From Moorella humiferrea (GTDB taxonomy: Bacteria > Bacillota > DSM-521 > Neomoorellales > Neomoorellaceae): a DNA stretch of 64,000 bases. Below are positions 4,637 through 44,740 of this stretch, in pieces; the stretch's first letter is position 1, and each line of letters starts with the position of its first letter. Below the pieces are notes generated by a model. It had not been told where the DNA came from. It did no database searches and saw nothing but the letters and a program-made list of their open reading frames with translations. A program made the position numbers and the translations under genes. The stretch is from contig NZ_CP136419.1 of NCBI RefSeq assembly GCF_039233145.1, positions 1,152,001 to 1,216,000 of the forward strand. Direction: 5' to 3'.

Positions 4637-6131
4637 AGATTTTAAAGAGATTGTTGCCGGTGCGGCCTTGGGTTTGCTGATTTTTTTAAGTCTCAAAGGA
4701 GTCGACCTTACCCCCATAATCCTTTTGGCCGGAATGGGGTTCTTCACCTATTGGGTAATTGAAAAAAAGGGGGGGCTGCCGGGCCTGCCGGCGACCCTGG
4801 GCGGCAAAGGGTACGAGCCTTCGGTGAAGGTAACCTTTGCCGACGTAGGCGGCCAGGCTACTGCCGTTCAGGAGTTAAAAGAGGCATTAGAATTTTTGCT
4901 ACGCAGCGATGAAGTTGCTGCTATGGGTATCCGCCCCTTAAAGGGGATTCTTTTGAGTGGTCCGCCGGGGACGGGGAAAACCCTTTTGGCCAAGGCGGCC
5001 GCCACCTACACGGACGCCGTATTTCTCGAAGCCAGCGGCAGCGAGTTTATCGAAATGTATGCCGGCGTCGGCGCCCAGAGGGTTCGGACCATTTTTAACC
5101 GGGCCCGGGAGCTGGCCCGCCGCAGACAAAAAAAGCGGGCGATTATATTCATTGATGAGCTGGAAGTTTTAGGAGGCAAACGCGGCAGCCACACCTCCCA
5201 TCTGGAGTATGATCAGACTTTGAACCAGCTTCTCGTGGAAATGGATGGTTTAAAAAGCAGTCAGGACGTCCAGATTCTTGTTATCGGGGCTACCAACCGA
5301 CCTGATTTATTGGATCCGGCACTGCTGCGTCCGGGGCGTTTTGACCGGCAGGTCAAAGTCGACCTGCCTGACAAGGAGGGCAGGCTGGCCATATTAAAAC
5401 TGCACACGGCCAATAAACCCCTGGCGCCTGAGGTTGATCTGGAAGCCGTCGCCCGCGAAACCTTTGGGTTTTCCGGAGCGCACCTGGAAAGCGTGGCCAA
5501 TGAGGCCGCCATCCTGGCTTTGCGGGAAAAATCGCCCCTCATTACCCAAAAACATCTAATGGAAGCAGTAGATAAAGTCATGTTGGGGGAAAAGCTGGGC
5601 CGCAAACCGGCAGACGACGAGCTCTATCGGCTGGCCATCCATGAAGCCGGGCATGCCATAGTCGGCGAACTATTGAGACCCCGGTCGATCTCCCACGTGA
5701 CCATAACTTCCCGCGGCCAGGCTTTGGGGTATACCCGGCAAAAACCAGAGAATGATATGTATTTATATACCAGGGATTATCTGGAAGCACAGATGGATAT
5801 CTGTCTGGCCGGCGCCGTGGCCGAAGACATGATTTTGGGAAACCGCAGTACCGGTTCTTTGAACGATTTTAAAGAGGCCATACGCCTGGCCCGGGTTATT
5901 ATTACCGCCGGGCTTTCGGATTTAGGAGTGGTGGCTGAGGAAAATTTGACTAAGGAGCAGATGCATAACGCTTCGTCGGCCATCATCAATCAAGAAGAAA
6001 AAAAGGTAATGGTCCTTCTCCGGCCCTATCAAGAAACGTTAAAGGTTCTGGCGACCCGGCTGGTAGAAAAGGAAACGGTTACCGGCAGGGAATTACGGGC
6101 GCTGCTGCAGGACAACGCCCTCGCTTCTTGA
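4629..6131 (+). CDS. FtsH-like AAA+ zinc metalloprotease with a minimal membrane anchor
   Basis: Membrane-bound ATP-dependent protease of the FtsH family, 500 aa, GTG start. Two hydrophobic helices (about 8-24 and 29-44) are separated by only a few residues, so the roughly 75-residue extracytoplasmic domain of classical FtsH is missing. The AAA module has Walker A GPPGTGKT near residue 111, pore motif EMYAGVGAQRVR, Walker B IIFIDELEVLG and the second region of homology LLRPGRFDRQ. The peptidase has HEAGH near residue 338 and the distal aspartate in SLNDFKEA, so all zinc ligands appear present. It overlaps the upstream membrane protein gene. It is likely a paralogue of the housekeeping ftsH, which is not in the window. 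Confidence 0.9.
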   Translation: MFKDFKEIVAGAALGLLIFLSLKGVDLTPIILLAGMGFFTYWVIEKKGGLPGLPATLGGKGYEPSVKVTFADVGGQATAVQELKEALEFLLRSDEVAAMGIRPLKGILLSGPPGTGKTLLAKAAATYTDAVFLEASGSEFIEMYAGVGAQRVRTIFNRARELARRRQKKRAIIFIDELEVLGGKRGSHTSHLEYDQTLNQLLVEMDGLKSSQDVQILVIGATNRPDLLDPALLRPGRFDRQVKVDLPDKEGRLAILKLHTANKPLAPEVDLEAVARETFGFSGAHLESVANEAAILALREKSPLITQKHLMEAVDKVMLGEKLGRKPADDELYRLAIHEAGHAIVGELLRPRSISHVTITSRGQALGYTRQKPENDMYLYTRDYLEAQMDICLAGAVAEDMILGNRSTGSLNDFKEAIRLARVIITAGLSDLGVVAEENLTKEQMHNASSAIINQEEKKVMVLLRPYQETLKVLATRLVEKETVTGRELRALLQDNALAS

Positions 6132-6201
6132 AAATTTTGGCGCGCGACAGCAGGATTATAAAGAAGAAAAAGCGAATAAATTTATTATCCGGGGGATGGA
6201 C

Positions 6202-6780
6202 ATGCGGTTGTTTGTGGCTATAAATTTTTCGTCTACCTTGAAACAAGCCCTGGCGGAACTGTTGGAAGAACTGCGGCAGCTGGCACCTAACATCAAATGG
6301 GTGCCGCCGGAGAATATCCATTTAACCCTCAAGTTTTTGGGAGAAGTGGCCCCCACCGGAGTTGAGGAAATGGGGGCCGCCCTCCAGCGGGCCGCTGCAG
6401 GGCTCGGTCCCTGGCACCTGGAAATAAAGGGTACGGGGGTTTTCCCTGGATGGCGTAGTCCCCGGGTGGTTTGGGTGGGAGTAAACTCGGAGAAGCCCCT
6501 GTATATTTTACAGCAACAGTTGAGCCAGGAATATCTGGCCCTGGGTTTTCCCCTCACTCCCTTTACTCCCCACCTGACTTTGGGCCGCCTGCGGCCGGGG
6601 ACGACCCTGGGGGCAGTAGAGGAAAAGCTTAAAAGCTTGTTAGATCACTCCTGGGGACAGGAGAAAGTAACGGCGGTAAGCCTGATGGAGAGTCGTCTGA
6701 CGCCAAGGGGAGCCATTTATCGTCCGGTGCTAACGGTGCCCCTGCCGCAGGCTGAAGCGACACAGGCTTTTCCGACATAG
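6202..6780 (+). CDS. thpR: RNA 2',3'-cyclic phosphodiesterase ThpR (2H family)
   Basis: Opens 2',3'-cyclic phosphate ends of RNA; formerly called 2'-5' RNA ligase. Two HxTx motifs, both HLTL (in ENIHLTLKFLGE and TPHLTLGRL), are the hallmark of the 2H phosphoesterase superfamily and supply the catalytic histidines. I chose the ATG at 6202 (MRLFVAI) because GGGGGA at 6191-6196 is then well spaced; an in-frame ATG at 6196 overlaps that site. Length 192 aa is normal for ThpR. It lies directly upstream of recA, with no clear promoter or LexA-type box between them. Confidence 0.92.
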   Translation: MRLFVAINFSSTLKQALAELLEELRQLAPNIKWVPPENIHLTLKFLGEVAPTGVEEMGAALQRAAAGLGPWHLEIKGTGVFPGWRSPRVVWVGVNSEKPLYILQQQLSQEYLALGFPLTPFTPHLTLGRLRPGTTLGAVEEKLKSLLDHSWGQEKVTAVSLMESRLTPRGAIYRPVLTVPLPQAEATQAFPT

Positions 6781-44227: not shown

Positions 44228-44695
44228 TTATTTGTCGGCGCGCATAGCTAATCCCTGGGCAATCACCGATTGCACCGCCGGACTGCATCAGGTTCCGGCC
44301 GGGTTTTTGATAAGGCATTCACGGCCACCATTGGCACCCGTGTGCTCCCGGATGTCCTGCAAATTGTGACAGCATTGGCGGTTAACTATATGCTCGAGGA
44401 TCTCCCTGTCGGTGACGTTATTGCAGTAGCATATTATTCGGGGCGTTTCTTCCTTAAACCATACCGGCACCCGGACATGTTCCTTGGTAAAAATGGTGCC
44501 GTTGTCGCCATAATAGACTACATTACAAGCAGAGGATAGGCACAAATTATACTGGACGTCCTCCAAGGATTCTGCCGCTTCCGTATTAAGTAAACTAGCT
44601 ATCGTTATCGGAGCAACCTTTTGCCCCCTTTCACCGCAGCGCGGGCAGACCGTAGCGGCTTCCCGTCCTTTGCCGCCGCAAACTCCATGGGCCAT
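44228..44695 (-). CDS. CopZ-N-terminal-like Fe-S/zinc metallochaperone, probable selenoprotein (TGA 44290-44288 read as Sec)
   Basis: Minus-strand ORF of 135 codons, then in-frame TGA, then 19 codons to TAA; 155 aa with Sec at position 136. Start ATG 44695 follows AAAGGGTGA. It resembles the N-terminal domain of archaeal CopZ: zinc-type CPRCG (17-20), C52 and C57, CYCNNVT (89-95), C127 in GGRECLIKNPAGT. The residue pair after that (TGA then Cys137) corresponds to the Cys-Cys pair that, as I recall the family, contains the last [2Fe-2S] ligand. No HMA copper-binding domain follows. A conventional call ending at 44288 would lose Cys137. The downstream hairpin (44257-44276) has SECIS features. 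A Cys-to-stop mutation is the alternative. Confidence 0.8.
44257..44276 (-). promoter_or_regulatory. Bacterial SECIS-like hairpin
   Basis: On the minus strand GCAATC pairs perfectly with GATTGC around a GGT loop, and an outer GG/CC pair encloses a single bulged U on the 5' side. The loop begins 20 nt after the TGA, close to the roughly 18 nt in the E. coli fdhF SECIS, which also has a GGU-containing loop and bulged U. Confidence 0.7.
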
Positions 44696-44740
44696 TTTGC
44701 GTTCACCCTTTCTTTCGTTTTTAATTTTAATTAAATTAAA

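Follow-up and report, generated by a model that had tools for sequence, protein, structure and literature searches.

A probable selenocysteine codon in a CopZ N-terminal-domain protein of Moorella humiferrea and its relatives in the Bacillota

Organization of the locus

The window, i.e. the whole stretch of 64,000 nucleotides analysed here, belongs to the finished 2.67-Mb genome of Moorella humiferrea, whose nearest relatives are Moorella species. The frame under study lies on the minus strand (44695-44228): it opens with an ATG and runs through 135 sense codons, a TGA (44290-44288), a TGC coding for cysteine and 18 further sense codons to a TAA (44230-44228). If the UGA is read as selenocysteine (Sec, U), the gene (44228..44695) comprises 155 codons plus the TAA, and the predicted protein ends in CLIKNPAGT-U-CSPAVQSVIAQGLAMRADK. 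A preliminary description of this locus had given the same frame, the same TGA followed by Cys-Ser-Pro, and 19 sense codons before the TAA, all of which we confirm. The sequence AAGGGTG (44704..44710, minus strand), 8 nt 5' of the ATG at 44695, is a probable ribosome-binding site.

Under translation table 11, where TGA is a stop, only an ORF of 135 amino acids results. An open tail of 19 codons is expected by chance with a frequency of about 40% (uniform-codon estimate) and is therefore unremarkable in itself, so that the case for Sec has to be made by comparison. The terminator that had been proposed 17 nt past the TAA has weak support. An outer stem of 7 pairs, imperfect and followed by a run of T, begins at this distance, but the terminator scan listed none 3' of the gene.

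The neighbours of the gene are lexA, a small ORF, a tRNA-Glu gene and nfo, where lexA and nfo are what we take these genes to be from recognition of their sequences. The small ORF lies just upstream (44929-44794, minus strand) and encodes about 44 residues (MTKRFKLSRNGPNQDRRSKVRAREFHRIRGNQVIIDPERGPENK). A limited check of relatives found no conserved gene neighbour.

Conservation of the UGA codon and presence of the Sec machinery

In all ten readable Moorella genomes, the one of the window included, the ortholog carries this TGA as its only one, followed by a tail that is conserved. In an eleventh, incomplete Moorella assembly the frame of the gene is broken, and the TGA is still present. A wider search, covering the phylum and named genomes, resulted in 43 distinct sequences with UGA followed by a cysteine codon (U-C sequences, hereafter form 1) and 33 sequences with Cys-Cys. 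The alignment of CopZ N-terminal homologs at site 136, suggested as a check in the preliminary description, is clear: codon 136 (44288..44290, minus strand) is UGA in 43/43 form-1 sequences, which form a clade within the Bacillota, and a cysteine codon in 33/33 outer homologs. Sec would thus replace the first cysteine of a Cys-Cys pair while the second one is kept, as had been proposed. The form-1 set spans Desulfosporosinus, Acididesulfobacillus, Desulforamulus, Syntrophomonas and other Peptococcaceae, and the sequence following the UGA is conserved throughout. Two form-1 copies (L094 and L095) come from one assembly labelled Actinobacteria and branch inside the Peptococcaceae group, which reflects either gene transfer or a mis-binned contig. 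The phage records searched contained no relative.

This distribution bears directly on the possibility that a sequencing error or a pseudogene mutation has turned a cysteine codon into the TGA. A single base change in TGC or TGT would suffice, and such an error could explain the additional TGA of L100, a metagenome-assembled relative (see below). However, 43 distinct sequences, which come from many genomes and include those of all ten readable congeners, share this TGA, and there is purifying selection on either side of it. This refutes the explanation, to which we assign hardly any weight at all.

In a phylogenetic tree the U-C sequences occupy one side of a branch (support 93/89), and this branch is also obtained, with a support of 94, in a quick tree from which the tail and the Cys-Cys columns were excluded. 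This placement of all U-C sequences fits the view that Sec originated once and was not reverted within the sampled tree.

The genome of M. humiferrea encodes a tRNA-Sec (71.9 bits, anticodon tca), SelB, SelA and SelD; the search for selA, selB, selC and selD that the preliminary description called for thus found all four. Across the homologs, selA was detected in 23/23 UGA-form genomes of more than 80% completeness versus 19/26 genomes with the Cys-Cys form only, one split copy being included in the latter count (p = 0.01). Homologs ending before the TGA, a tail without conservation and a lack of sel genes had been named beforehand as outcomes that speak against Sec, and none of them occurred.

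The selD gene of the M. humiferrea genome (L035) has an in-frame TGA after CSSG, followed by a hairpin with a GG loop (GGGUCC..GGACCC). Judging from this arrangement, SelD is probably itself a selenoprotein. A further in-frame TGA, near the N-terminus of L040, occurs in a genome (G104) without a selA match. It probably reflects a true stop or a start that lies later, and serves as a useful negative control.

The hairpin downstream of the UGA

Past the UGA, the DNA text GTG CAA TCG GTG ATT GCC forms a hairpin (44259..44273, minus strand) with a six-pair stem, GCAAUC / GAUUGC, and the loop GGU (44267-44265). It begins 14 nt past the UGA, and the gap between UGA and loop is 20 nt. The published model of the bacterial SECIS element expects a stem of 4-16 pairs, a loop of 3-9 nt that has G in its first two positions, and a gap of 16-37 nt, so that the earlier statement of a SECIS-like hairpin at the right distance holds. 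The folding energy in the window is -8.8 to -16 kcal/mol, and 39/43 form-1 sequences pass the energy limit for bacterial SECIS elements.

Compared with shuffled sequences, the single sequence has an ordinary folding energy (z about -0.4 to -0.95), and the significance of the hairpin derives from the comparison across sequences. All six stem pairs are kept in 42/43 form-1 sequences, and the synonymous sites of the hairpin are all but frozen: Ser143 is encoded by TCG in 43/43 sequences, V141 and V144 by GTG in 42/43 each, and I145 by ATT in 41/43. The mean relative codon entropy of these four codons is 0.17, versus 0.87 for 42 other conserved codons. In addition, two compensatory changes were observed, one from A-U to G-C, which results in Q142R (L097, L099), and one from G-C to U-A, which results in A146E (L079). 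The predicted RNA fold is maintained even where the protein changes. Since the compensatory changes alter amino acids, the RNA hairpin dictates, at least in part, the motif VQSVIA.

If the UGA were a real stop, the protein would end at residue 135 and the conservation downstream would be accidental or belong to another element. The 135-residue ORF obtained with table 11 and the ordinary folding energy of the tail are in line with this idea. On the other hand, the tail is conserved both as protein and as RNA over a clade of several families, and neither TAA nor TAG occurs at codon 136 in any of the 43 form-1 sequences. We consider a real stop very improbable. Conservation of the UGA, the constraint on the hairpin, the compensatory pairs and the presence of the Sec machinery strongly favour the reading of UGA 136 as selenocysteine, for which we estimate a probability of roughly 95%. 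The tRNA-Sec and SelB would decode UGA 136, guided by the downstream hairpin.

Domain structure and the probable cluster ligands

The N-terminal part of the protein (residues ~15-75; 44470..44653, minus strand) is a zf_CopZ zinc-binding domain with the cysteines C17, C20, C52 and C57, which are invariant across the broad alignment A1. It matches PF18423 with 70.7 bits (cut-off 28.4). The remainder (residues ~86-155; 44231..44440, minus strand) is a BFD-like [2Fe-2S] domain with C89, C91, C127 and U136/C137. The match of residues 87-146 to PF04324 (Fer2_BFD) has a score of 24.6 bits, just below the cut-off of 26; the assignment also draws on the AlphaFold model and on the structure 2hu9. The model (mean pLDDT 81) contains a helix at residues 138-154 (block pLDDT ~90), and its residues 86-152 superpose on Bfd from Pseudomonas (6e6r) with a Z-score of 9.3 and an rmsd of 1.4 A over 56 residues. 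As residues 138-154 form the final helix in this superposition, the last helix of the BFD fold, which includes VQSVIA and is conserved in the form-1 clade (44231..44284, minus strand), is predicted to be encoded 3' of the UGA.

C137 directly precedes this helix and is kept in 43/43 form-1 sequences. The last cluster ligand of Bfd presumably stands at the same place, just before the final helix. We further take Cys75, Cys77, Cys109 and Cys119 to be the cluster ligands in 2hu9, the N-terminal part of CopZ from Archaeoglobus fulgidus, which agrees with C89, C91, C127 and C137. The latter four residues are probably the ligands of the [2Fe-2S] cluster. Given the place before the last helix and the ligands of 2hu9, Sec136 would probably adjoin the last ligand rather than replace one.

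Alternatively, Sec136 and not C137 might ligate the cluster. The two residues are adjacent and either could reach it, and both spacings, C127-x8-U and C127-x9-C, are unlike that of Bfd. However, the invariance of C137 directly before the final helix and its alignment with Cys119, presumably the residue used by A. fulgidus CopZ, make this arrangement unlikely.

With C137 as the probable fourth ligand, a real stop at codon 136 would delete both this ligand and the final helix of the fold, which further argues against such a stop. The earlier claim that termination at the UGA removes the last ligand is therefore valid for C137, but Sec136 itself is probably no ligand. Standard gene calling cuts 20 residues off the protein, the probable cluster ligand among them.

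A vicinal Cys-Cys pair and possible functions

Besides the Sec, the form-1 alignment reveals a vicinal Cys-Cys pair, C108-C109 (44369..44374, minus strand). All 43 form-1 sequences have C108, and 42 of them have C109 if the TGA of L100 is counted as Cys; the remaining one has Arg there. In the Cys-Cys homologs both residues are rare, and mostly Gly-Ala or similar is found instead. This suggests C108-C109 as a thiol partner for Sec. However, since the association of Sec and C108-C109 is confined to one clade, it does not constitute independent evidence.

L100, from the Peptococcaceae assembly BRH_c4a (6052-6468), has a second in-frame TGA at this pair, with GCURDI where L101 has GCCRDI. By eye, the text downstream of this second TGA differs little from that of the Cys-bearing L101. 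It is possible that L100 is a member with two Sec residues or that it contains a one-base error.

We suppose that the gene encodes a small protein, probably located in the cytoplasm, that combines a Zn-binding domain with a Bfd-like [2Fe-2S] domain. Sec136 would be a non-ligand selenolate where the last helix begins, with C137 adjacent and C108-C109 in the same domain. The most probable role would then be in redox reactions or electron transfer, with selenol chemistry coupled to the cluster and the thiols, possibly as part of metal handling. From the domain type and the Cys/Sec pattern, a redox role in which Sec is no ligand appears somewhat favoured. A more specific and rather doubtful idea is that a Sec-Cys beside, or partly ligating, a Bfd-type cluster constitutes together with the second vicinal Cys-Cys a redox relay from selenol to cluster, perhaps with Sec as a switchable ligand. 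We know of no description of an active site of this type.

The preliminary description had named the protein a CopZ-type metallochaperone. A true copper metallochaperone would be compatible with the homology to the N-terminal half of CopZ, and MerR- or CsoR-like genes, as judged by motif, are located near a few relatives. However, the Moorella protein consists of the Zn and [2Fe-2S] half only: a Pfam search found no match to the HMA domain PF00403 in it. A CopA-type ATPase is encoded about 0.9 Mb away and HMA proteins likewise elsewhere in the genome, while the gene itself is surrounded by lexA, a tRNA gene and nfo. Using simple motifs, we found no general pattern of CopA, CsoR, MerR or HMA neighbours in the flanks of nine loci. 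Because an HMA domain is lacking and no copper genes are nearby, the term metallochaperone goes too far, and from sequence and gene context we regard a function of this kind as improbable.

With the present analysis, a selenoprotein family that is catalogued but uncharacterised gains a well-supported member from Moorella. The RNA-level evidence for the SECIS element is strong and includes compensatory changes in which the RNA takes precedence over the protein sequence. A testable arrangement of Sec, Cys, cluster and dithiol is indicated. New details are the pattern fitting one Sec origin without reversion in the sample, the motif VQSVIA as one at least partly dictated by the hairpin, and the Cys-Cys pair that accompanies the Sec form.

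Comparison with known proteins

The '(2Fe-2S)-binding protein (copper chaperone CopZ family)' has been reviewed as two selenoprotein forms (PMC9312934, PMC13188914). Form 1 has the motif GxUC and is represented by WP_245779778.1 (PMC13188914 Table 1; PMC9312934), whereas form 2 (Csac_0668, NF045877) has the motif CU. The entry for form 1 stands in a catalogue of 2026. In the original paper of 2008 to which form 1 is referred, the main text makes no mention of CopZ. Compared by family and motif, the Moorella protein likewise has the CopZ N-terminal domain, with PF18423 above the cut-off, and its GTUC matches GxUC; in these two respects it does not differ from the catalogued form. By motif, it is form 1 of a known family, and the earlier designation as a new selenoprotein is not supported (PMC9312934, PMC13188914).

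Form 2 has the two-domain architecture in common with the Moorella protein, which scores 135.4 bits against NF045877 and thus stays under the curated cut-off of 190. In form 2, however, Sec is located near the N-terminus (CU) and the C-terminal Cys-Cys is kept, whereas the Moorella protein has its Sec at position 136 of 155 and no N-terminal CU. The form-2 relatives L041, L044, L046, L051, L053 and L013 have the TGA after an N-terminal Cys and keep the C-terminal Cys-Cys. Going by the predicted Sec positions, one and the same architecture has acquired Sec at two distinct sites. With NF047645 (CopZ_Nterm_CC) the Moorella protein reaches 88.5 bits, also under the curated cut-off (100).

The N-terminal part of A. 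fulgidus CopZ (2hu9) aligns with an E-value of 2.8e-17, including all eight probable metal-binding cysteines. It has Cys118-Cys119 where the Moorella protein has U136-C137, and the Cys-Cys pair of archaeal CopZ that had been named for the TGA site is thus found there. Native A. fulgidus CopZ carries an additional copper-binding HMA domain, which is absent from the Moorella protein. Bfd (6e6r, 4e6k) resembles the BFD half, which superposes on it, but has neither a Zn domain nor Sec, and its loop before the last ligand is shorter. Since Bfd from P. aeruginosa likewise contains two vicinal cysteines where the Moorella protein has C108-C109, this pair is not unique.
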